Shown: one piece after another, positions 6,487 to 44,500 of the stretch
Layout: each line of letters begins with the position of its first letter
How positions within the stretch are numbered: the first letter of the stretch is position 1
Source: Arthrobacter sp. CAN_C5
GTDB lineage: Bacteria; Actinomycetota; Actinomycetes; Actinomycetales; Micrococcaceae
DNA: 64,000 bases
Reading direction: 5' to 3'
NCBI RefSeq assembly: GCF_017875735.1
Contig: NZ_JAGGMZ010000001.1
Location: 1,426,001-1,490,000 of the forward strand
Translations under genes and position numbers: made by a program
The notes under the pieces: generated by a model
What the model saw: only the letters and a program-made list of their open reading frames with translations
Database searches by the model: none
Told to the model about the DNA's origin: nothing

Positions 6487-9400
6487 TTACTGGGGGAGTG
6501 CGTGCCGCCCGGTCCGGGGAGGCTCGCTGGGCTGCTCGGGCCGCCGCGAGTGCTCGCGCGCCTCCCGACGCCCTTCCACCAGCCGGTAGATTACCGGGAC
6601 CAGGATCAGCGTCAGCGCCGTTGACGAGACCAGACCGCCCACCACCACCACGGCCAGGGGCTGCGAAATGAACCCGCCCTCACCGGTGAAGCCGAGCGCC
6701 ATCGGGGTCAGCGCGAAGATCGTTGCCAACGCGGTCATCAGGATCGGGCGGAGCCGTTGCCGGGCTCCCTGGATGATCGCTTCCTCAACCCCCAGGCCGG
6801 GGGAGCCGTCGTGCGGGCGCCGGTACTGATTGATGAGGTCGATCAGCACGACGGCGTTGGTCACCACGATCCCCACCAGCATCAGCATGCCCACCAGGGA
6901 CGGCAGGCCCAGCGGAATCTGGGTGATCACGAGCAGTGCGATGGCCCCGGTGGCGGCGAACGGCACCGAGACCAGCAGGATCAGCGGCTGGATCAGAGAT
7001 TTGAAGGTAGCGACCATGATCACGTACACGATGGCGACAGCTGCCCAGAGCGCCAGGAACAGCTGGGCGAAGGACTCCGCCTGCTCGGCTGATGCGCCAC
7101 CCAGGGTTGCGGTGGTCCCGGCGGGTAGTTCCACGCCGTCCAGCCGCTCGGTGACGGCCGTGGTGAGGGCCCCGAGGTTCTGTTCCGACGGTGTAATGGA
7201 TACCTGGGCCGTCCGTTCGCCGTTGGCGCTGGTGATGGACAGCGGCACCTCGACCTCGACGGCGGAAGCCACCGAGGTGAGCGGGATTGGCCCCGCGGGG
7301 GTGGGCAAGACCAGATCCTGCAGCTGTTCAAGGCTGGTCACCTCGGTACCCTCGCCGATGAGAACCGGGTAGTCGGTGGTTTCCAGGCGTACCTGACCGC
7401 CGGGAATCGGGCTGATGCTCCCGCCCAGCAGTCCCGCGATCTGTCCCTCGCTGAGGCCGGCGGCGACTGCCTCAGCCCGGTCGACGCTGATCTGTACCTG
7501 CGGCTGTGCTGCGGCCAGGTTGCTGGTGACGTCCCGGGCGCCGTCGAGACCCTGCATGGCAGCCAGCACGGCGTCGCTGGCGGCCTGCAGCTCATCGGGC
7601 CCTGGAGCGGTGATGTCCACGTCAATCGTGCTGGAGGTGCCCAGGCCCCCCTGCTGTGCGGACAGGGCGAAGTCGCCGACGCCGGTCAGCGACTCCAGTT
7701 CCTCCCTGATGTCGTTCTGCAGCTGCTCCTGGTCGGCGTCCTCGGCGGTGATTACCGTGAAGGACGCCACCGAGGTGCCTCCGGACAGCCGGGCGGCGAA
7801 GCCGCTGGAGGCGTTGCCGACGGTCACCTGCACCTGTTCCACCCCGGGGAAGCCGGCCAGTACTTCCTCGGTCTGGCTAGCCGCTGCCACGGTGGTGTCG
7901 AGACTGGACCCCGGTTCGAGGGTCTGGTTGATGCTGAAGCTGTTCTGCCCGGTGTTTCCGAGCAGGTTGGTCTGCAGGAGGGGGATCATCGCGGCCGTGC
8001 CGGCCAGGACCAGCACTCCTGCCGAGAGCGTCCACACCGGGTGCCGCTGGGTGGTACCGAGGATCGGCAGATAGCCGCGCTGCAGCCAGGATTTGCGCTC
8101 CGCCTCGTGGGCGTCCTCCCGGACCTGGTCGGAGTCCACTCCGGGGGCCGCAGCGGGCAGGAACCAGTACGCCAGCACCGGCACAATGGTCAGCGAAACC
8201 GCCAGCGAGGCCAGCAGCGCGATCGTCGTGGTGAGTGCGAACGGCCTGAAGAGTTCACCGGCGAGGTCGCCGACAAACGCAATCGGCGCGAACACCGCGA
8301 CCGTGATCAGCGTCGATGCGGTGATGGCCCCGGCGACCTCCCGCACCGCGGTCAGGATGGCCTCGCGTTTATCCTCGCCGTAGCTGAGGTGCCGTTTGAT
8401 GTTCTCGATGACGACGATCGAGTCGTCCACCACCCGGCCAATGGCGATGGTCAGCGCGCCCAGGGTCAGAATGTTCAGGGAGTATCCGGTCACCCAAAGA
8501 CCGATGAACGTGATCAAGAGGGACAGGGGAATGCTGATCGCAGTCACCAGGGTGGACCGCACTGACAGGAGGAACACCAGGATGACGACGACGGCGAAAC
8601 CGAGACCGAGGATCCCCTCGGTGGTGAGGTCGCTGATCGAGCGTTCGATGAAGGGGGCCTGGTCGAAGATCACGGTGATCTCGGCGTTGTTCCCCAGCTC
8701 TGCCTCCAGCTGCGGCAGCAGTTCCTCCACGAGGTTGGAGATGGCGACGGTGTCGCCGTCGGGAATCTTCGTGACGGTCAGGGCCAGGGTCTCGGTGCCG
8801 TTGGTGCGGGTGACGCTGGTGACGCTGGTGGCGTCGTCGTCGGCGACGGCTACCTCAGCGACCGAGCCGATGGTCGGTGGGGTCTGGCCCGCTTCGGGGG
8901 TCCCGCCGTCGGGCAGGAGGGGGAGAGCACGGATGTCATCCAGCGAGGCAATCGGGCTGCCGGCCTGGATGGTGAGGGAACGGTCGCCGTCCTCGAGGGT
9001 GCCGACCGGGATGAGGTCGCCGTTGTTCTCGAGCGCCGTGGTGATGTCGGCGACCGTGAGGTCGTTGGCGGCGAGGTCTCGCTGGTCGGGCAGGATCGAG
9101 ATGTACTGGTTGGCACCGCCACTGACTTCCGCCGCCCGGACGCCCTCCAGCTGTTGTAGCCGGGGCACGGTGAGCCGGGTGAGGTCACCGTTAAGTTCGC
9201 TGAGCGGTGAGTCGGATGAGACTGCCATGAAGACGATCGGCAGGTCGGCGATGCTGCCGGCCAGCGATTGTGGGGTGACGTCCTCGGGCAGCAGCGGGCT
9301 GACCGTGGAGATTGCCCGGTCCACCTGGCCGCGGGCGCGGTCAAGGTCGGTCCCGTAGGCGAACATCAGGTTGATGGTCGACACCCCGGTCCGGGAGGTG

Positions 9401-11288: not shown

Positions 11289-13013
11289 TCAGGTGCTCCC
11301 TGCGGGTTCCAGGTCGACGTCGGCCAGATCGATCAGGTTGAACGCCTCGTTCATCACGGGGCTGACCGGGTAGCTGGCGACCCGTTCCGACACTGCCAGG
11401 ACCGAGATGGGGAAAGCCAGTGGGACAGCGGGCAAGCGGCGGGCGATCTGATCGCTGATGTCCTGGTAGGCGGCCACCCGGTCCTCCCCGTTGGGCAGGG
11501 TGCGGGCCCGGTCGATCTTGCTGAACAGCTGGTTGTCCTCGAAGGCGAACTCGTTGGGGGCAGCCCCGAACAGCTGGCCGACAAAGTTGTCGGGGTCCTG
11601 GTAGGTTCCGCTCCAGCCCAGCAGATGGAAAGCGCGGTCGTCGTCGTTCTGCACTGTCTTGACGTACCCGTCGGCCCAGGCGGTGGGGACCGGATCGATG
11701 GTGAAACCGGCGTCCTCCAGCTGTTCCTGCAGGACAGCGAAGACGCCCTCGGGTGCAGGAAGGTAGGGCCGCGACACATCGGTGGGGTAGTGGAAGGGCA
11801 GTGGCTCGCCGTCGTAGCCTGACTCTTCGAGCAGTTCCCGGGCCAGTTCGACGTCGTAGTCGTAGGTGGTGATCTCGTCGTTAGTGACAGCCAGCTTGGG
11901 CGGCGTGAACTGGTCGGCGGGCGCGGTGCCGTCCAGGAACAGGCCGTCGATGACGGCCGGCTTGTCGATGGCGTGCGCAACTGCCTGGCGGAACAGGAGG
12001 CTGTCGACGCCGGGGAAGTCCTGGTTCATGCCGAGGTACAGGATGGAGTAGGGGTCGCGTTGCAGCAGTTGCTGACCCTCCCGGGCCAGGTCTCCGGCGT
12101 TGTCGACAGTGACAAAGTCGTAGCCGTCGATCTGCCCGGTGTTCAGCGCCTCGAGCCGATCATCGGCCAGGGGGAGTGTGGTGAACACCACCGTGCCGAT
12201 CTCGCCGCGGGCACCCCAGTACCCCCTGAAGGAGGTGAGGCGGACCTCACCCTCTTCCCAGCTTTCGAAGGTGTAGGGCCCGGTGCCCACCGGGTTCAGT
12301 GCATACTGCGACATGGCAGTCCCGTTGAATTGCTCGGACAGGTCGTCGGCGGAGAGTTCCTCCAGCGCCTTGGGCGAGGACATCGCGAAGGACGGCATGG
12401 CCAGGGCCGGGATGAACCCGGTGAGCCGACTGTTCAGCGAAATGAGGACCTCGTATTCGCCGAGCGGCTGGCATGACGAGTAGATGGATAGCTCAGGCTG
12501 GTCGGAATAGGCGTTGAACACCGAGCCGAAGGTGATGGTGCTGTCGAAGATCCGGGTCTCCGCTGGCAATGAATACCACCGTTCGAAGTTGGCACAGACC
12601 GCTTCGGCGTTGAACGGCTCACCGTCGTGGAACGTGACATCCTCCCGGAGGCTGAACGCATGGGCCCGGCCGTCGTCCCGCTCGTCCCAGGAGGTGGCGA
12701 GGAGGGGGACGGGTTCCGACGTGAGCGGGTCGATGCCGACCAGGCCTTCCAGTACCTGCCGGGTGACCCGGTAGGACTCGGTATCGGCTACCAGTGCCGG
12801 GTCCAGGCCGGTCGGGTCGGCGGCGGTGCCGAAGGTGAAGACTGCTTCGGGATCCTCGGCGGGGACCGTGGCTGGGGGAGTGGTGGTGGGCGAGCTGGTC
12901 GGCGATGGCAATGGGGTCGCCCCGGTGCACCCGGCGAGGGTGAGGGACAGAACCAGCGCAACTGCGGCGCGGACCGGGCGGGCCCGTCGGGCGGGTTGGC
13001 CAGCAGCGGTCAT
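11289..13013 (-). CDS. ABC transporter substrate-binding lipoprotein, peptide family 5
   Basis: Extracytoplasmic binding protein of 574 residues tethered by a lipid; lipobox LTLAGC with Cys29, followed by a Ser/Thr/Pro-rich spacer. The family 5 signature around residues 70-120 is clear (LVADTESYRVTRQVLEGLVG, then TFHDGEPFNAEAV). Such proteins bind peptides, nickel or sugars. No permease or ATPase genes adjoin it, so it is an orphan receptor that must borrow a translocator. ATG 13013 has AGGAG 9 bases upstream; a start ten codons earlier is less likely because it would place an acidic stretch before the signal peptide. Confidence 0.9.
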   Translation of the reverse strand: MTAAGQPARRARPVRAAVALVLSLTLAGCTGATPLPSPTSSPTTTPPATVPAEDPEAVFTFGTAADPTGLDPALVADTESYRVTRQVLEGLVGIDPLTSEPVPLLATSWDERDDGRAHAFSLREDVTFHDGEPFNAEAVCANFERWYSLPAETRIFDSTITFGSVFNAYSDQPELSIYSSCQPLGEYEVLISLNSRLTGFIPALAMPSFAMSSPKALEELSADDLSEQFNGTAMSQYALNPVGTGPYTFESWEEGEVRLTSFRGYWGARGEIGTVVFTTLPLADDRLEALNTGQIDGYDFVTVDNAGDLAREGQQLLQRDPYSILYLGMNQDFPGVDSLLFRQAVAHAIDKPAVIDGLFLDGTAPADQFTPPKLAVTNDEITTYDYDVELARELLEESGYDGEPLPFHYPTDVSRPYLPAPEGVFAVLQEQLEDAGFTIDPVPTAWADGYVKTVQNDDDRAFHLLGWSGTYQDPDNFVGQLFGAAPNEFAFEDNQLFSKIDRARTLPNGEDRVAAYQDISDQIARRLPAVPLAFPISVLAVSERVASYPVSPVMNEAFNLIDLADVDLEPAGST

Positions 13014-36897: not shown

Positions 36898-36938
36898 GAC
36901 CGACGCGCCTGCAGAAATCTGTGGGCGCGCCGGTCTTT
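36898..36938 (+). terminator. Terminator of leuB-ilvE
   Basis: 11-bp stem with one mismatch (36898-36908 with 36925-36935) followed by TTT. It overlaps the end of the convergent GGDEF-EAL gene. Confidence 0.65.
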
Positions 36939-38475
36939 AAGAGGCGAGGGGCAGGGTGGCCGCGGAACGCAGCAGGGCCGTGGTTTCCTCGACCGGCAAG
37001 GGCCGGCTGAAGTAGTAGCCCTGGCCGCCGATGCAGCCCATCTCCTGCAGCTTCTGCACCTGGTCGTACGTTTCGATGCCTTCGAAGACGGCCTCCAGCC
37101 CCGCTGCGCGAATCAGCTGGAGGATTGCAGAAATGAAGTCGAACTGGATGGATCCGGTCGACAGTTCATTGAGTAGGGACCGGTCCACCTTCACCATGCT
37201 GACGGGTAGCTTTCGCAGGTAGCTGATGGAGGAGTACCCGGTGCCGAAATCGTCGATCTCGATGCACACGCCCAGCTGCTTCAGGCTCAGCAGCGAATAG
37301 GTTTCCACCTCGCCACCGGTCACCAGCGCGGTTTCGGTGATTTCCAGCACCAGCGCCGCCGGCGGGATATCGAACCTTCGCAGGAGTCCACGCACGTAGT
37401 CCACCAGGTCCAGCTGCTGCAGTTCCACGGCCGAGAGGTTAAGCCGAAGCTGGAAGTCGTCGTCGAGCTGCAGTTCAGTTCGCCACAGCGAATATTGGCG
37501 GATGGCTGCCGCCATTACCCATCGGTCGAGCTCAACCACTGCACCGATCTCCTCGGCCAGTGGGATGAACTCGTCGGGCATGATGAAACCCCGGGTGGGG
37601 TGATTCCAGCGGACCAGCACCTCAAGCCCGAGGACCCGCCCGTCGCGCAGGTCCACCACGGGCTGGTAGTTGAGGGAGAGCTGGTTCGTGGAGATGGCGT
37701 CCCGGAGCTCGGACGCGATCTGGCTCCGCAGCTGGCGCTGGTACAGCATGACCGGTTCGAAGACCTTGATGGTGCTGCGGCCCTCGCGTTTGGCGGCGTA
37801 CATGGCGGTATCGGCGTCCAGCAGGATGCTTTCGGCTTCCTGGCGCGGATCGGCCAACCGCACACCGATGCTGGCGCGGGAGAAGACGTGAAGCTCGGCG
37901 AGCGTGATCCGGTCTCCCAGGGCGGCGAGCGCCCGGTTGGCGATCCGGAGCGCGATCTCAAGGGTGGCCTCGGGAACCAGGATTGCGAACTCGTCGCCGC
38001 CGAGCCGCGCGACGGTATCGGTGTCGCGGACCGCCCCGAGCAGGCGGCGGGCTACCTCCTGGAGCACGCGGTCGCCGGCGTCGTGCCCGAAACTGTCGTT
38101 GACGTCCTTGAAGGAATCGAGGTCCAGCAGGATGATGGCGGGCGGGGGAGTGCCCTCTTCCGTTTCCAGCTGTTCCTGAAGTTTGCCCAGTAGTGCGCTC
38201 CGGTTGTCCAGACCGGTCAGTGCGTCGGTCATGGCCATCGTCCGCATGTCCAGGTGTGCCTGGTGGAGCATCGCTGTGCGGTTTTCCACCCGCTCTTCGA
38301 AGTCGCGGTGGACCAGTTCCAGCTCTTCAGCGAGGAGGTTGAAGCCGGTGATGACGGCGTCGACGTCGTCGCGTGCCGCTGAGGGTTCCATCCGGCTGCT
38401 GAGGTCACCGCGGGAGAGCCGGACGATCCCGTCGACCAGCATGGCCAGGCGCGGGTCTGCCTCTTTCCTAGGCAT
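36937..38475 (-). CDS. Bifunctional GGDEF-EAL protein with N-terminal HAMP-like segment
   Basis: Cyclic-di-GMP turnover protein of 512 residues with no membrane helix. Residues 12-75 resemble a cytosolic HAMP domain and coiled coil (VRLSRGDLSSRMEPSAARDD). The GGDEF domain (about 85-245) has the intact active site RLGGDEFAIL, so cyclase activity is expected. The EAL domain (about 255-505) has EVL in place of EAL but keeps the catalytic Glu (LGLEVLVRWNHP), Asn in RLNLSAVEL, Glu in LEITETAL, DDFGTGYSS, Lys in VKVDRSLL and EGIET, so phosphodiesterase activity is also plausible. It overlaps the upstream STAS-like gene by 8 bases; that gene would be the natural regulatory partner. Confidence 0.92.
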   Translation of the reverse strand: MPRKEADPRLAMLVDGIVRLSRGDLSSRMEPSAARDDVDAVITGFNLLAEELELVHRDFEERVENRTAMLHQAHLDMRTMAMTDALTGLDNRSALLGKLQEQLETEEGTPPPAIILLDLDSFKDVNDSFGHDAGDRVLQEVARRLLGAVRDTDTVARLGGDEFAILVPEATLEIALRIANRALAALGDRITLAELHVFSRASIGVRLADPRQEAESILLDADTAMYAAKREGRSTIKVFEPVMLYQRQLRSQIASELRDAISTNQLSLNYQPVVDLRDGRVLGLEVLVRWNHPTRGFIMPDEFIPLAEEIGAVVELDRWVMAAAIRQYSLWRTELQLDDDFQLRLNLSAVELQQLDLVDYVRGLLRRFDIPPAALVLEITETALVTGGEVETYSLLSLKQLGVCIEIDDFGTGYSSISYLRKLPVSMVKVDRSLLNELSTGSIQFDFISAILQLIRAAGLEAVFEGIETYDQVQKLQEMGCIGGQGYYFSRPLPVEETTALLRSAATLPLAS

Positions 38476-38845
38476 CCGGGCCGCTTCCCAACCAGGCCAT
38501 TGCCTCGGACTCGGTGGTGAAGAACCGGGTGGGGCACGGCGGCGGTTCGCCACCGAGCAAAAAGTTCGCGATCACGCGGTCCACCGGGGACTCGCCCAGG
38601 ACGGCGATCGCCGAGGAGGTGCGTGAGGAGGCGAGGACGGCGCGGGCTTCACGGCTGATCGCGCTGACGCCCGAAATTACCAGCAGGACCGGGCGCAGAT
38701 CGTCTCCAGCCAGGGCCCTCGCCCTCGCCGCGTGTGCCTCAGCAATTTCACCGGTGACCTCCACGCCCTGGGGCATGACCAGCCTGATTACCCAATCCGG
38801 CTGATCCTCCCGCACGCGATCATCTTGTGTAGTTATAGCCGACAT
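38468..38845 (-). CDS. Small STAS/SpoIIAA-like domain protein (DUF7793-like)
   Basis: 125-residue soluble protein with an alternating beta-alpha pattern: WVIRLVMPQGVEVTGEIAEAHA, PVLLVISGVSAISREARAVLAS, SAIAVLGESPVDRVIANFLLG, TRFFTTESEAMAWL. This is the STAS-like fold seen in anti-sigma-factor antagonists and in small proteins next to GGDEF genes in Arthrobacter-like bacteria; the Ser of VSAIS sits where antagonists are phosphorylated. Fold by pattern only. AAAGG 5 bases before ATG 38845 sets the start. It lies 51 bases after the glycosyltransferase stop on the same strand and overlaps the GGDEF-EAL gene by 8 bases, so the three form one operon. Confidence 0.65.
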   Translation of the reverse strand: MSAITTQDDRVREDQPDWVIRLVMPQGVEVTGEIAEAHAARARALAGDDLRPVLLVISGVSAISREARAVLASSRTSSAIAVLGESPVDRVIANFLLGGEPPPCPTRFFTTESEAMAWLGSGPDA

Positions 38846-38896
38846 GGTGCCTTTCACTCCGACTGCGTCTCTGCCCGGTTGTTGGCAAACCCATCC

Positions 38897-41221
38897 CTAC
38901 CGCGAGGAGATCCTGCGACGACGGTCGTTGGAGCCCCGGAGATCACGGTTGAGCCGACGGTCACCGTGGTACAGGATCGATGACCAGTCAGCTTCTTCGG
39001 GGGTTTTCTCAATCACCCGCGACTTTGCTTCAGGCTTCTTGCGGGGCGGCACGTAGAGCCAGTTTAGGACTCCAAGAACCATGTCCACAATTGAATTGTT
39101 AACCCCAATGTAGGCGCGGATTGCCCCCGCCGCCAGTATTGCATTGAATCCTGCGAACGCGGCGTTACCCCAGTTTCCCTGAGAGACATCGCGCCACAGG
39201 GTCAGGACCGAGAAGGCGACAATCGCATACGGGATAAAGACGTACAGGGCTGGTGCCGCCGTCCGGTCCTTGACCTTGGGGGTACGCACGAAGGGAATCT
39301 TCTCGCCGGTGAAGGCCTGCTGGATGGATTTCAGCACGCCCGCCAGGTTCACCGGTAGCAGCACGATGTTGAACCCGTAGATCCTGAAAATGTCGCTGAA
39401 CCGGTGTCCGCAGTCCCTCAGGTCGCTTCCCATGGCCAGGAAGTAGGGCAGCGCCGTCAGGAAGACCAGCGGACTCAGGAGCCGGCTGTCATACGGGTAC
39501 ATCAGCAGGAAGAGCAGCCCGAAGCTCGCCCAGGCGATCGAGGCCATGTAGTTGACCCGGAGCAGCACTTCCCGCATCAGGATCCGGTCCCGGCGGTGGC
39601 GTCGCTCGGACAGCTGGTTCCACAGCTTCGGCAGGATCAGCAGGCCACCGTTGGCCCACCGGCGGCGCTGCACCACGAGGGATCCGAAGTCAGGGGGAGT
39701 GGCGCTGTAGCTGAGCCGCTCGGGATAGTTGACCAGCGTCCACCCGTGGGCTCCGAGGTCCACGCTCGACTCGGTGTCCTCGATGACCGTCCGGTCCTGG
39801 ATGTAGGTGTGGATCTCGAACCCACCAACATCCTCGACCTCGAGGATGTCCATCAGGGCCTCTTTGCGGATGACCGCGTTGGCGCCCACCCAGAAGGTGG
39901 CCCCGTAATAGGACATGCCCTGGTGCAGAATGTGCTGGATGTCGGTCGTGGCTCCGGCCACCCGCTCAATCCGGGTGGGTGCCCCACGGAAGGAGGAGTA
40001 CGGCGTCTGGGTGACCGCCACCCGTTCATTGCCGGGGGATTCCAGAAGGTAGACCAGGCGAAGGCAGTAGTCGCGGAGCAGGAGCGAATCGGCGTCGAGC
40101 GTAAGCAAGTAGGTGGTGTCGGGCACATCGAGGTCCACCTGGGCTGGACCCTCGGCGGGACGCAGGATGGTGCCGTTGGGGGATTCTTCCCGGTGCCAGC
40201 GCTTCCCCATCAGGGAAATGTAAGAGTTCAGGTTCATCGCCTTGTTGGCTTCGTGTGACAGGGAAGCGAACATCTTGCGCTCGAACGTTTCCAGCCGCAC
40301 CGTGAAGATGCGGCAGAGCCGCAGGTACAGCTCGTCCAGGCGGTCCGCGGCCGGTTGTCGGCCCTGGGCGCGGGCCGCGGTGAGGCCCAGCACTGTGAGC
40401 CGGAGCTCCCGGGCCAATCCCATCAGCACCAGGTCAACGAAGAACTCGTCCACGTGATCCTCGATGCTTTCCGCGGCGGCCATGTCCTCGAGCCAGGTTG
40501 CGGCGGCGACGTATTCGGTGGTGAGCAGTTCCAGCTCGTCGATGCCGTCTTCGATGGGTGCCGTGAGACGTTCGCGGAAGGCGGTGAGGGAGTCGTTGAA
40601 CCGGGTGGAGGGTTCGAGCAGCTGTGCTTCGATGCCCTCCGTCAGTTCCCGGGTAATCCGGAGCCTCTCGGCTACTGCCGCGTCGGAAGGCGCGGGAGGG
40701 TCATCGAGGAGGAGAACCACTTTCAAGTCCGGGAACTCCTGAAGGGCTGCCGACCAGAGGGTGGCACGAACCACCTGGGGCTCCTCGGCGTAGGAGGGCA
40801 CCAGGACGGTGATGCCGTCTTCATAGTGCGCGAAGTGCCGGTCCAGCTCACCACGGGGTACCCGTTTGTGGTCCCTGAAGCGGTACAGGGCGCCCTGCCG
40901 CGCCACCAGATACAGCAGCGCCGAGAAGGTGAGGAACGTGACCACAATGAGGTAGGAGACAGCCTCGAACTGGAACCGGAAACCCGCAGTCGGGTTCTCG
41001 ATAAGCTGCCGAAGGATCGTGGTGACCACGTAGGAGGCCCAGCCGACCATGGTCGCCACGATAGCCAGCCGGCCAAGAGCAATCTTCCGGCGCGACGGCG
41101 TCGGGTGGACAATCGATAGAGGTTCGGAGCGCTTCTCGGCGCCCCATTGCCGCTTGCGGGCCGCCGGGGGTACATCCTTGTTTTTCCGGACGGGCGCTGC
41201 AGCCACTTTGTGATTCTTCAT
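38897..41221 (-). CDS. Cellulose-synthase-like family 2 glycosyltransferase
   Basis: Membrane processive glycosyltransferase of 774 residues. Two N-terminal helices (about 48-68 and 85-108), a cytosolic catalytic domain split by a 130-residue helical insert (about 165-300), and four or five C-terminal helices. Catalytic marks: ITVLVPSYAEEPQVV at the nucleotide site, DxD in TLDADSLLLRD, the acceptor motif in IQDRTVIEDTESS and QRRRWANGG for the Q(Q/R)xRW motif. It lacks a PilZ domain. The polymer is unknown; beta-linked glucan or amino-sugar chains are likely from the family. It starts the operon with the STAS-like and GGDEF-EAL genes and is divergent from a secreted GH18-like protein. Confidence 0.88.
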   Translation of the reverse strand: MKNHKVAAAPVRKNKDVPPAARKRQWGAEKRSEPLSIVHPTPSRRKIALGRLAIVATMVGWASYVVTTILRQLIENPTAGFRFQFEAVSYLIVVTFLTFSALLYLVARQGALYRFRDHKRVPRGELDRHFAHYEDGITVLVPSYAEEPQVVRATLWSAALQEFPDLKVVLLLDDPPAPSDAAVAERLRITRELTEGIEAQLLEPSTRFNDSLTAFRERLTAPIEDGIDELELLTTEYVAAATWLEDMAAAESIEDHVDEFFVDLVLMGLARELRLTVLGLTAARAQGRQPAADRLDELYLRLCRIFTVRLETFERKMFASLSHEANKAMNLNSYISLMGKRWHREESPNGTILRPAEGPAQVDLDVPDTTYLLTLDADSLLLRDYCLRLVYLLESPGNERVAVTQTPYSSFRGAPTRIERVAGATTDIQHILHQGMSYYGATFWVGANAVIRKEALMDILEVEDVGGFEIHTYIQDRTVIEDTESSVDLGAHGWTLVNYPERLSYSATPPDFGSLVVQRRRWANGGLLILPKLWNQLSERRHRRDRILMREVLLRVNYMASIAWASFGLLFLLMYPYDSRLLSPLVFLTALPYFLAMGSDLRDCGHRFSDIFRIYGFNIVLLPVNLAGVLKSIQQAFTGEKIPFVRTPKVKDRTAAPALYVFIPYAIVAFSVLTLWRDVSQGNWGNAAFAGFNAILAAGAIRAYIGVNNSIVDMVLGVLNWLYVPPRKKPEAKSRVIEKTPEEADWSSILYHGDRRLNRDLRGSNDRRRRISSR

Positions 41222-41478
41222 CTCGCTCCCCAGCGACTCGATTGCAGGATTAATTCCTGCCTATCCCTGCGCAGCCGGCACGCGCCGTACCACCGTGGGG
41301 GATGGATTTTATCTGCGATCACGTCCAACACTGAGACCTGGCACATGACCGTTACAGCGGTTCGATGACGCTGTAACGATAACACTTGCGGTCAAGACTT
41401 ATAGTGAGTACGTAACATTAAAGTTTAGTGTTCAAGTAACCCTGGCTCAGCAGGGGTGAATATTTCTTGGAGTACACA
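41222..41478. promoter_or_regulatory. Divergent promoter region with three palindromes
   Basis: Between the glycosyltransferase and GH18 genes. It contains GCAGGA-N5-TCCTGC (41244-41260), a perfect 10-bp repeat CGTTACAGCG-N9-CGCTGTAACG (41350-41378) and an imperfect palindrome around AACATTAAA (41414-41432). A TATAGT (41400-41405) is a possible -10. The region is AT-richer than its surroundings and probably holds operators for both directions. Confidence 0.5.
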
Positions 41479-43044
41479 GTGGCAAGACATTTTCCGGGCC
41501 GGAAACTCTCGTTTGTCCGGCTCGTTCTTGTGGTGGGGGTTCTTGCCGCAGTAGTCGGCGCTTCATTTACCGGGTGGAACCGTTTCGAGGACGCCAGGGC
41601 AGCGGAAGGCACCGGATCCTGGTTCACCGGGTACGTCGACGCCACCGCTACTCCGTTCTACGCGTTCGAGCGTCCGAGGACCGACGAGGGCAGCAGCGTC
41701 ATGCTGTCCTTCATCGTCGCGGACCCGGAGAATCCCTGCGAGCCGTCCTGGGGTGCGGCCTACAGCTTTGACGAAGCCGAGTCCACCATGGATCTGGATC
41801 GCCGGATCGCCAGGCTCGTTCAGGGCGGTGGCGAGGTGGCTGTGTCCTTTGGAGGTCTCCTCAACGACGAGCTCGCCACGTCCTGCGCTGACGTTGACGA
41901 CTTGAAGGATGCCTACGCCTCGGTCGTGGAGCGGTACAACCTCACCACCATCGATCTGGACGTCGAGGGCGAGAACCTCCTGGACACCGAGGCCGGCGAG
42001 CGCAGGGCCGAGGCCCTGTCGCTGCTGCAGGAAGAGCGGCTGGCAGCTGACGAACCGTTGAACATCTGGCTCACGCTCCCGGTGGCGCCCTCGGGCCTGA
42101 CCGAGCCGGGCACCACAGCCGTCACGCAGATGCTTGAGGGTGGGGTTGATCTTGCGGGAGTCAACATCATGACCATGGACTTTGGGGGTAGCAAGCCCCA
42201 GTCGATGAGCATGTTGGACGCGTCGATCGCCGCAGCAGAGGCCACCCATTCGCAGCTGTCCACTCTTTACAGCCGGGCCAACATGGCGCTTGGTCCGCAG
42301 GCGCTCTGGACGAAACTGGGGTTGACCCCGATGGTGGGGCAGAACGACGTCGTCAGCGAGGTCTTCTCCCTGGACGACGCCGCGGGCCTCAACGCCTTCG
42401 CCGTCGAGCACGGAGTCGGTCGGATGTCCATGTGGTCACTGAACCGGGATGTCACCTGCAGTGACAACTACGCCGATGTGTCGGTAGTCTCCGTGGGCTG
42501 CAGCGGAATTGACCAGAACGGGCTGAGCTTTGCCCAGCTTCTGGGGCAGGGGTTTGAGGGCAGCTCCGAGAGCATCCCGACGGCGTCAGCGACGCCCGAG
42601 CCCACCCCCGAGCTGGTCGAGGACAACCCCGAAACCAGCCCGTACCCCATCTGGTCGGAGGACGCCACCTACGTTGCTGAGCAGCGTGTGGTCTGGCATG
42701 GCAACGTCTATGTCGCCAAATGGTGGAACGAGGAGGCAACTCCCGACAACCCGGTACTGCAGGCCGACGAGACGCCGTGGACCCTGATCGGGCCGGTGCT
42801 GCCGGGCGAGAAACCAGTCAGCGCGCCCACCATTCCCGCTGGAGTCATCGACGAGTGGGATCCCGAAGAGGTCTACGAGAGCGGCGACCGGATCCGGCTC
42901 GATGACCACGTGTTCGTCGCCAAATGGTGGAGCCAGGGGGACAGCCCCGAGGCCGCACTTCAGGGATCGGCCGGATCGCCGTGGAACCGGCTCAGCAACG
43001 ACGACGTCGTCAAACTCCTTGAGGATCTGGAGAACGACGACTAG
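41479..43044 (+). CDS. Secreted GH18 chitinase-like protein with two C-terminal chitin-binding-type modules
   Basis: 521 residues. A signal or anchor helix lies at 14-34 (VLVVGVLAAVVGASF). The catalytic-type barrel spans about 45-370; the GH18 motif appears as TTIDLDVEGENL, keeping two Asp and the catalytic Glu but with Thr where the first Asp of DxxDxDxE stands. Then a Thr/Pro/Glu linker (about 375-395) and two modules of the ChiC/CBM5-12 kind, each ending VAKWW: YVAEQRVVWHGNVYVAKWW and the later EVYESGDRIRLDDHVFVAKWW (in part). Substrate would be chitin or another GlcNAc polymer. GGAG 6 bases before GTG 41479 sets the start. It overlaps the convergent TPR gene by 4 bases. Confidence 0.85.
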   Translation: MARHFPGRKLSFVRLVLVVGVLAAVVGASFTGWNRFEDARAAEGTGSWFTGYVDATATPFYAFERPRTDEGSSVMLSFIVADPENPCEPSWGAAYSFDEAESTMDLDRRIARLVQGGGEVAVSFGGLLNDELATSCADVDDLKDAYASVVERYNLTTIDLDVEGENLLDTEAGERRAEALSLLQEERLAADEPLNIWLTLPVAPSGLTEPGTTAVTQMLEGGVDLAGVNIMTMDFGGSKPQSMSMLDASIAAAEATHSQLSTLYSRANMALGPQALWTKLGLTPMVGQNDVVSEVFSLDDAAGLNAFAVEHGVGRMSMWSLNRDVTCSDNYADVSVVSVGCSGIDQNGLSFAQLLGQGFEGSSESIPTASATPEPTPELVEDNPETSPYPIWSEDATYVAEQRVVWHGNVYVAKWWNEEATPDNPVLQADETPWTLIGPVLPGEKPVSAPTIPAGVIDEWDPEEVYESGDRIRLDDHVFVAKWWSQGDSPEAALQGSAGSPWNRLSNDDVVKLLEDLENDD

Positions 43045-44087
43045 GAAGCATCTTCCTCGGGCTGTGTTAGCGAGTCGATAAGGACGGCCACATGCTCAGC
43101 ACGGTCGTGCGCTCCAGCTTGAACGAAAAGGATCCTGGACGTATCAAGGTAGTTCAGTGCTTCGATGTCGTCCCCTCGGCCCGCTAGTGCCCGCCCCAGG
43201 AGAAGATTCGCTTCACCAGCGGTTTGCGAGGCGAGAATCGTTCCCTCAGCGCAGATAGGCCTGAGCCGTTTCACCGCGGCGTTGAGCTGGCCGGTGAGGA
43301 CCAGCCAGTGGGCGCGGGTCAGTGAAAGCTCCAGCTGGTCGCGCTCGTTGCCTCCGACAATCGAACTCGCGGTCTCTGCTCGTTCGATGCACTCGAGGGT
43401 CTCGGCGTCGACAACACCTGCGGCCAGCCGGAGCGCCGCTGATGCACGGTTGAACCGGGCCCATAAATCCAGATCATTGTTGGGCGACAGATTGCGCGCC
43501 GCAAGGGAATGGAATCTGGTTCCATCAGCTACCTCATGACGCATGAAGGCAACGTTTCCTATTGCCCAGTACGCTTTACCGGCGGCCTGTGTGTGAACCT
43601 CGGGCGTGATGAAGGTCGAAAGGACGAGGCACTCATCCCAGGCTTCGTCTAATTTGTCGCTGTCTGCCAGGGCCGCAATGAGAGCAAGTTGTCCGCTGAT
43701 ATTCAGGTCAGTGGGGCTTCCATCGGTATTCGCGATTTTCACCGCAGCCGAAGCTTCTTCGACGGCGTCGCGGAGCTGACCAAGTCCATGAAGTCCTACG
43801 GATAGCAGTGTCCGAACGCGTGCAGCGAGTGCAGGAGAGTGCTTGGTCAAGGGGTGAACTTTCAGAGAATGAGCAAGCTTGACCGATTCCTCGACCAAGC
43901 CTTCCTCCCGCAGGCACTCAGCTTGCAGAAAAGTCATATTCCACCACGCGGCGTCGTTCTCTTCAGCAAGCGCGAGCTCAACTGCCTGCCCAGAAATTAT
44001 TCGTCCCTGGGTGTAGTCGCGTTGGCTCCATGCCTCCCTTGCCCGCAGCTCAAACAGTAGCTGGTCACCGGGCTGATTTGTTGCCAT
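43041..44087 (-). CDS. TPR-repeat protein (candidate peptide receptor)
   Basis: 348-residue soluble protein built entirely of helix pairs of TPR type, about eight to nine repeats, for example LLFELRAREAWSQRDYTQG, ALAARVRTLLSVGLHGLGQL, KAYWAIGNVAFMRHEV and ANLLLGRALAGRGDDIEAL. It has no helix-turn-helix, signal peptide or membrane helix. The size and all-TPR design resemble Rap proteins of the RRNPP family, although the N-terminal three-helix bundle of Rap is not evident. ATG 44087 has AAAGGG upstream. Facing away from it, 223 bases off, is a gene for a 47-residue exported peptide, the arrangement expected for a receptor and its signal. Other TPR proteins act as scaffolds, so the role is unproved. 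Confidence 0.7.
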   Translation of the reverse strand: MATNQPGDQLLFELRAREAWSQRDYTQGRIISGQAVELALAEENDAAWWNMTFLQAECLREEGLVEESVKLAHSLKVHPLTKHSPALAARVRTLLSVGLHGLGQLRDAVEEASAAVKIANTDGSPTDLNISGQLALIAALADSDKLDEAWDECLVLSTFITPEVHTQAAGKAYWAIGNVAFMRHEVADGTRFHSLAARNLSPNNDLDLWARFNRASAALRLAAGVVDAETLECIERAETASSIVGGNERDQLELSLTRAHWLVLTGQLNAAVKRLRPICAEGTILASQTAGEANLLLGRALAGRGDDIEALNYLDTSRILFVQAGAHDRAEHVAVLIDSLTQPEEDAS

Positions 44088-44240
44088 GGGTGGTAGCCCT
44101 TTCATGCAGATGGATGTGGACCTCGGGCAGTGCTCGCCAGGTTCTGCCAATTATCTACAGAAACCAGCACCTAGTACAGGGGGTCTTCGCACAGGGGTTC
44201 CTGAATGTTCATTCTTCCTACCGTATGGTTTTTCCAGTTT

Positions 44241-44282
44241 AGTTCGTATACTAATCGAACTCGTGAGGTTCGGTTCCTCACG
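44241..44282 (+). promoter_or_regulatory. Promoter and palindromes of the secreted peptide gene
   Basis: AGTTCG-N9-CGAACT (44241-44261) encloses a consensus-like -10, TATACT (44247-44252), as expected of a repressor site on a promoter; no good -35 is seen. Next to it, CGTGAGG-N7-CCTCACG (44262-44282) forms a hairpin in the predicted 5' leader. Confidence 0.5.
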
Positions 44283-44310
44283 TTTATCAAGCGATCAAAG
44301 GACTCTCGTA

Positions 44311-44454
44311 ATGAAAAAAATAGCTGCCTCTATGCTGCTCGCTGCAGTATTCGCAATCGGTGGGGTTACCACCGCCACCGCGGCCGACGCGTCAATCGGG
44401 TTTCAAAGCCCGACCGTTGACCGAATCCTCAAAATGGGTAACTGGCCACACTAG
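44311..44454 (+). CDS. Small secreted peptide (candidate signal pro-peptide)
   Basis: 47 codons: a textbook Sec signal peptide (MKKIAASMLLAAVFAIGG, then cleavage probably after TATA or AADA) and a mature part of about 20-23 residues ending RILKMGNWPH. ATG 44311 follows an AT-rich leader with only a weak ribosome site (AAAGGA, 10 bases upstream). No lipobox. The gene is isolated: its own promoter at 44241-44261, a terminator at 44469. With the divergent TPR gene it fits a Phr-like exported pro-peptide whose C-terminus would be the signal. It could also be a small toxin or cell-wall peptide. Composition is lower in GC than its neighbours. Confidence 0.65.
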   Translation: MKKIAASMLLAAVFAIGGVTTATAADASIGFQSPTVDRILKMGNWPH

Positions 44455-44468
44455 TCACTAACCAATCT

Positions 44469-44497
44469 CATTCAGCACTTATTCGTGCTGAATGTTT
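44469..44497 (+). terminator. Terminator of the secreted peptide gene
   Basis: Perfect 10-bp stem CATTCAGCAC / GTGCTGAATG (44469-44478, 44485-44494), 6-base loop, followed by TTT. Confidence 0.7.
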
Positions 44498-44500
44498 GCT

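Follow-up and report, generated by a model that had tools for sequence, protein, structure and literature searches.

The window analysed here is a stretch of 64,000 nucleotides (positions 1426001-1490000) from the soil actinobacterium Arthrobacter sp. CAN_C5, whose genome is a single contig of 3.86 Mb. It holds a gene for a protein that is built of tetratricopeptide repeats (TPRs) and lacks a helix-turn-helix (HTH) domain and, divergent from it, a small gene for a putative exported peptide, with the two start codons 223 bp apart. Receptor and peptide are likely a pair with a signalling role. The features at the centre of the locus are:

43041..44087, minus strand: HTH-less TPR protein of 348 residues with an ATG start, the proposed cytosolic pheromone receptor
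44311..44454, plus strand: exported pheromone precursor of 47 residues, MKKIAASMLLAAVFAIGGVTTATAADASIGFQSPTVDRILKMGNWPH, proposed from the open reading frame (ORF) and its relatives
44434..44451, plus strand: C-terminal unit MGNWPH, proposed as the core of the mature signal; consensus in the family [VI]-G-x-W-P-x, repeated in relatives
44297..44302, plus strand: AAAGGA, likely the ribosome-binding site for the peptide gene; invariant in four distinct sequences

An initial annotation of this DNA had described a 348-residue, all-TPR protein without a DNA-binding domain, and the ORF, Pfam and an AlphaFold model bear this description out. No DNA-binding domain was found in the window protein by Pfam or in the model; Pfam returned a single sub-threshold TPR_2 match (E 0.0092). 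The model, calculated from an alignment of 64 sequences, is all-helical, with a predicted local distance difference test score (pLDDT) of 92.8 and a predicted template-modelling score (pTM) of 0.85, and we read it as eight TPR pairs followed by a capping helix. The A helices of TPRs line the groove, and helices A5, A6 and A2 of the receptor have the highest mean conservation. The same annotation had placed a 47-residue prepeptide with a Sec signal 223 bases away on the other strand. Its coordinates and the conserved pairing agree with this, and the signal satisfies a simple rule (charged start, hydrophobic core, small-x-small site) and inspection by eye, SignalP not having been used.

The peptide is recognizable by its C-terminal end. 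Twenty aligned peptides share an invariant W-P and the same type of signal sequence; the commonest letters around W-P are [VI]-G-[NW]-W-P-[DNH], and in precursors linked to the HTH-bearing receptors described below PM often comes next. The unit occurs one to six times per precursor, as in Sinomonas atrocyanea (L130), with five AIGNWPDPM units, and L045, with four VGNWPD units. At least two copies are present in 35 of 38 HTH-linked precursors versus 26 of 78 linked to TPR-only receptors; these counts, like the tree discussed below, carry the wrong-frame label EPCWPAPV for L201, whose likely peptide has GNWPD three times. Because one short unit repeats within one precursor, the W-P unit is likely the product. 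It is conserved and often repeated, and it differs from clade to clade. In an alignment of 18 peptides of 46 residues, the ratio of non-synonymous to synonymous change (pN/pS) is 0.33 overall (signal, 0.28; linker, 0.32; last six residues, 0.55) versus 1.21 and 2.19 in the two shifted frames. This pattern indicates that the frame is under purifying selection and that its C-terminal end is freest to change; the frame conservation on which the initial annotation had staked its proposal therefore holds. A chance ORF is ruled out by the conserved pairing together with pN/pS.

A homologue of the TPR protein is present in all 38 genomes of the genus. These genomes supply 45 receptor rows, some genomes appearing twice, and in 42 rows a divergent ORF beginning M[KR][KR] carries the W-P unit, the filter behind this count not having asked for W-P. 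The three rows without a peptide are the first copy in L010 and L017, for which too little upstream sequence is available (246 and 82 bp), and the first copy in L007, which lacks it. In the sampled family, taken as Micrococcaceae (Pseudarthrobacter and Sinomonas are among the named genera with a receptor), a receptor of either architecture was found in 143 of 295 genomes and 17 of 32 genera (E 1e-20). The scan of named genomes comprised the best 80 of 226 matches. Removal of duplicates left 138 distinct receptors, of which 136 have 500 bp or more of upstream sequence; under a rule that requires W-P, a divergent exported peptide accompanies 116 of these 136. By the original pattern labels the peptide was found beside 79 of 82 TPR-only and 37 of 54 HTH receptors; corrected labels give 78 of 79 and 38 of 57. 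The correction moved three receptors to the HTH side: L170, a plain HTH protein with a peptide, and two without one, L213, which has HTH-like remains out of frame, and L183, whose frame is broken and whose place in the tree is among the HTH receptors. The linked peptide gene sought in homologues at the suggestion of the initial annotation is thus found beside 78 of 79 TPR-only receptors, yet is missing beside 19 of the 57 HTH-type ones. When 482 other ORFs of the named loci, each of 250 residues or more and with spurious frames among them, were put to the same W-P rule, 17 matched, and none of the 12 listed among these was of the [VI]GxWP type. A stricter motif found nothing in 10 of 31 loci, eight of which were recovered by a looser motif; six more (L130, L133, L141, L143, L151 and L152) were regained past a length limit.

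Five genomes carry tandem receptors (L041-L045). In each, one peptide has the unit IDDWPH or IDNWPN and the other (V/I/S)GNWP(D/G), and each peptide type goes with its own receptor clade. A search at the level of the class gave matches in 8 of 394 genomes, four in the same family, two in another family of the order and two in two further families, which suggests that the system may reach beyond Micrococcaceae. In the other family of the order (L171/L223/L230), an HTH-TPR gene stands beside a divergent gene for an exported peptide with three copies of GGSWPT, and in another family of the class (L233/L239) the peptide beside such a gene has ALNWPKCC.

Sister receptors carry an XRE-type HTH ahead of the same TPR domain (HTH_31 E 1.6e-11 in L144). 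In a quick IQ-TREE analysis, with SH-aLRT support only and the root not inferred, a single starred clade unites 81 TPR-only rows. Because the more distant rows of the tree (L171-L173, L002, L182 and L184) carry the HTH, its loss is the simpler reading: the TPR-only clade would most simply have lost the DNA-binding domain. The genes of the HTH-type loci among L113-L176 lie mostly ~130 bp apart. By reading, the intergenic regions of 14 HTH-type loci have TTGACA in common, most also with a downstream element resembling TACAAT and with TGTCAA in inverted orientation, and the TTGACA/TGTCAA inverted repeat is a candidate operator of the HTH receptor. A second receptor match, 29-37% identical, is present in 24 of 38 genus genomes.

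The neighbours of the HTH-less receptor point to cyclic di-GMP (c-di-GMP), an internal messenger that commonly controls biofilm. Four genes lie on the receptor side of the window:

36937..38553, minus strand: GGDEF-EAL c-di-GMP protein, 538 residues (longest ORF), the proposed output partner; HAMP match below the cut-off
38468..38857, minus strand: DUF7793/SpoIIAA-like protein, 129 residues, the proposed adaptor; adjoins the GGDEF-EAL gene
38897..41221, minus strand: family-2 glycosyltransferase, 774 residues, polysaccharide synthase-like; between the receptor and the c-di-GMP genes, in some relatives too
41467..43044, plus strand: CBM5/12-module protein, secreted and GH18-like by reading only; goes with the glycosyltransferase

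The GGDEF and EAL domains of the window protein are matched at E 3.4e-42 and 4e-69, and across 70 distinct GGDEF-EAL sequences RxGGDEF is kept in 69 (one has GGNEF), E(A/V)L in 70 and DDFG(T/S)G in 70. The cluster is found in 42 of 48 loci of the genus type and 19 of 23 of the WW type, some genomes being counted twice; besides the receptor/DUF7793 cluster, it is the only one of the 45 largest neighbour clusters that sits in most loci of both TPR-only subgroups. Where at least 1.8 kb of downstream sequence is available, a GGDEF-EAL gene lies downstream on the same strand in 64 of 67 TPR-only versus 0 of 40 HTH rows by the corrected labels (64 of 68 versus 0 of 39 by the original ones), tandem receptor copies sharing one GGDEF-EAL gene in these counts. 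In L198 and L208, and also in L178 and L179 (rows L214-L217), the GGDEF-EAL gene lies on the far side of the peptide gene, with DUF7793 seen in three of the four; in L194, the third miss, the DUF7793 gene is 4.2 kb downstream, beyond the fetched flank. Counted within 7.5 kb on either side, where 3 kb or more of flank is available, the linkage holds for 62 of 67 TPR-labelled rows versus 0 of 40 HTH-labelled ones; the five misses are L194, L213, L170 and the tandem copies L005 and L011, whose GGDEF-EAL gene begins 6.1 kb downstream. Among TPR-only receptors the linkage is kept down to 36-40% identity to the window protein and in two gene orders. In L126 and L134 the stop codon of the TPR gene shares one base with the start codon of the DUF7793 gene (TAATG), and the glycosyltransferase and CBM5/12 genes lie between receptor and c-di-GMP genes in the window and 14 other rows, tandem copies counted apart. 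An apparent TPR-DUF7793 fusion in L146 (497-residue ORF) was not counted, as it depends on one extra G (G8 versus G7 in relatives); this G8 run at ~7025-7050, which joins the two frames, is either a sequencing error or a slippage site.

We read the locus as an RRNPP-like pheromone system of Micrococcaceae whose HTH-less receptor acts by contact on the c-di-GMP module, and put the probability of this at roughly two in three. The reading builds on what is observed: the pairing and its conservation, the selection on the frame, the repeated units, the single HTH-less clade and its GGDEF-EAL linkage. From these we infer export, processing, import, binding, contact with the c-di-GMP module and matrix control, in the following order. 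The 47-residue precursor would be exported by Sec and a short C-terminal peptide around M-G-N-W-P-H released. The mature peptide would re-enter through an oligopeptide permease and bind the groove of the TPR protein; the genome has seven matches to the peptide-binding protein family SBP_bac_5, which are candidate peptide importers, and one of them lies in the window at 11556-12716 on the minus strand. The receptor itself would descend from peptide-linked XRE-HTH+TPR regulators that lost their DNA-binding domain. Given that loss, it would work through contact with other proteins, the linked DUF7793/SpoIIAA-like and GGDEF-EAL proteins being the likeliest partners, and probably does contact the c-di-GMP module. 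Such contact would set c-di-GMP turnover and hence, in the window, a family-2 polysaccharide synthase. Rap-like contact gains a candidate target in this way, one absent from the initial annotation, since GGDEF-EAL is linked to the HTH-less receptors and to no HTH locus examined.

Several observations weigh against this reading. Of all TPR-only receptors with 500 bp or more of upstream sequence, the first copy in L007 (also L084 and L224; G018:C39, 1086-2084) is the sole one for which no WP peptide was found; its tandem partner is peptide-linked. Under the rule requiring W-P, 19 of the 57 HTH-type receptors are without a linked peptide, L173 among them, where a looser rule finds a peptide ending DTWPA. 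The same genome encodes an XRE-HTH+TPR paralogue (G000:C1:3286013-3287227; L002, L181, L228), 34% identical in the TPR part and without a linked WP peptide; neither L002/L181 nor L182 nor L184, the latter two from other genus members, has a divergent upstream ORF that passes the signal rule, even with W-P not required. This paralogue may serve the peptide of the window as a second receptor. The GGDEF-EAL gene of the window lies ~4.5 kb from the receptor, beyond a convergent gene, and because the receptor faces that gene the two are not co-transcribed. DUF7793 was detected near just 42 of 67 TPR-labelled rows, so it is either less constant or too diverged. As the HTH-less receptors are one clade, the HTH loss and the GGDEF-EAL linkage may go back to a single inherited event, with gene order changed in addition. 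The 50 best Foldseek matches to the TPR-only model were generic TPR proteins, with no Rap or PlcR among them.

The paralogue and the transcriptional separation would both suit a pheromone pair whose HTH-less TPR protein hits some other target, either as a peptide titrator or through contact with the orphan XRE-TPR protein, with the GGDEF-EAL linkage incidental. We regard this as unlikely: the linkage survives to 36-40% identity and in two gene orders, is found at 0 of 40 HTH loci, and involves the one cluster besides receptor/DUF7793 that most loci of both TPR-only subgroups share. A secreted effector, such as a bacteriocin or surface peptide that the TPR protein regulates or protects against and that is not re-imported, would also be small and carry a Sec-type signal. 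Units repeated up to six times per precursor and the pairing with a TPR or HTH-TPR protein argue against it, as do the annotated neighbours (a minority of neighbour clusters), which include no immunity or export genes; we consider it improbable.

The conserved element might, lastly, be a regulatory leader or RNA with the small ORF untranslated. Two hairpins flank the peptide frame:

44262..44282, plus strand: leader hairpin of the peptide gene, its stem paired in 31 of 31 cells (four distinct sequences)
44469..44494, plus strand: 10-bp hairpin after the peptide stop, a possible terminator without a long T-run (z -3.4)

Across the four distinct sequences of the leader hairpin, two of eight pairs are changed on both sides, which speaks for this reading, though 25 of 500 shuffles equal its covariation score and 192 of 500 its number of doubly changed pairs; the covariation is weak against shuffles, and the folding energy is unremarkable (z -0.84). 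The AAAGGA and ATG of the peptide gene are kept in all four sequences, whole codon units vary in copy number among relatives, and pN/pS is 0.33 in frame versus 1.21 and 2.19 in the shifted frames, so that an untranslated ORF is very improbable indeed. The initial annotation had also credited the peptide gene with a palindromic promoter and a terminator of its own. Scans for sigma-70-type promoters and for terminators found nothing, the palindrome is the leader hairpin, and the 3' hairpin is strong but has no T-run; both details are weaker than described there.

The pheromone system proposed here is best placed beside the RRNPP(A) systems (PlcR-PapR, NprR-NprX, Rgg-SHP, ComR-ComS, PrgX and AimR-AimP), in which, as in the HTH relatives here, an HTH+TPR receptor adjoins a short gene for an exported propeptide. 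All RRNPP(A) receptors but Rap have an N-terminal XRE-type HTH, which the sister receptors have and the window protein lacks. The window protein agrees with these systems in its adjacent short gene for a Sec propeptide (signal by the simple rule) and in its TPR superhelix: eight helix pairs are read from the AlphaFold model, and RRNPP receptors carry 5-9 TPRs (PMC9765709). Two differences are that the host belongs to the Actinobacteria rather than to the Firmicutes and their phages, and that the signal is a W-P unit in up to six copies per precursor. Among the 50 best Foldseek matches to the HTH model, the PlcR-PapR-DNA structure 3u3w ranks 14 and 2qfc ranks 25, with RapJ-CSF (4gyo) at ranks 32-33, phage phi3T Rap at 36, 44 and 49, and many generic TPR proteins; generic TPR folds score as high as or above RRNPP structures. 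A profile search of the PDB matched PlcR (E 7.5e-4), ComR (~4e-3) and many other XRE proteins in the HTH part only, and the TPR profile matched RapF weakly (E 0.27). The structural comparison with Rap that the initial annotation had recommended, extended here to PlcR, gives a divided picture: both appear in the top 50 for the HTH relative, neither does for the TPR-only protein. Of its RRNPP-like logic, the pairing, the selected frame and the repeated unit stand; shared descent is possible, but the TPR parts show no recognizable homology by sequence, PlcR being matched in the HTH alone and RapF at E 0.27.

Another parallel is Rap-Phr of Bacillus, an HTH-less TPR protein with an exported peptide for which protein contact is expected. 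Rap phosphatases dephosphorylate Spo0F through an N-terminal three-helix bundle. No such bundle is seen in the model of the window protein, whose helix pairs would read as TPRs from residue 6, and the linked genes belong to c-di-GMP where those of Rap belong to the phosphorelay. AimR-AimP is phage-encoded, whereas the window gene is chromosomal and its receptor has no relatives in the phages, plasmids and viral contigs searched; a mobile-element origin was rejected for lack of any match there. RpfR of Proteobacteria, with the domain make-up PAS-GGDEF-EAL, couples a cell-density signal (DSF) to a GGDEF-EAL protein, as is proposed here; in RpfR the fatty-acid signal binds the enzyme itself, while the signal proposed here is a peptide that would work by way of a separate TPR receptor.

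Signalling of this type is known above all from Bacillus, Streptococcus and related bacteria. In the available parts of the literature, receptors that read peptide pheromones inside the cell count as a trait of Firmicutes: RRNPP is placed there (PMC13220807), one large survey covered Firmicutes (PMC9765709) and another Firmicutes and viruses, with actinobacterial signals given as typically small molecules (PMC10075063). The accessible part of an article on LuxR in Arthrobacter mentions neither TPR nor tetratricopeptide (PMC9659744). A search of open-licence literature found no actinobacterial peptide system of this type, no link between RRNPP and c-di-GMP and no description of such a motif, which is not proof of absence in print. 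The initial observation is confirmed as right and proves to have been understated; the refuting conditions set out with it were tried and did not overturn its interpretation. The chances seem to us about even that it extends to a direct pathway from peptide pheromone to c-di-GMP in Actinobacteria, in which a pheromone-responsive XRE-TPR transcription factor lost its HTH once in Micrococcaceae and was rewired by contact to DUF7793/GGDEF-EAL, so that cell density, sensed through the W-P peptide, sets messenger and matrix; the tandem pairs would then be insulated channels, and the W-P family a large undescribed class of pheromones. If true, the HTH-less clade is a naturally occurring example of a pheromone receptor that exchanged DNA for a second-messenger enzyme as its target, much as Rap took up a phosphorelay. 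Since the repeated precursor units spell out the likely signal, actinobacterial peptide quorum sensing becomes directly testable.

The lower guanine-plus-cytosine (GC) content noted in the initial annotation is real: the TPR gene has 0.585, the intergenic region 0.493 and the peptide gene 0.549, against 0.655 for the whole window, and the 1 kb at 43501-44500 is among the lowest 1% of 1-kb stretches. The peptide-side neighbours, an FAA hydrolase gene and further genes, are again present in 27-30 of the 48 loci of the genus type, a set in which some genomes appear twice and which was scored for presence of the genes. Because they recur and the receptor is present in 38 of 38 genus genomes, recent transfer is not favoured as the cause. 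The closest named relative by receptor is Arthrobacter sp. Bz4 (76%). An Arthrobacter-type receptor and peptide also occur on a contig (L098) whose record is titled Vibrio cholerae strain 35D, which looks like a mislabelled or mixed assembly.

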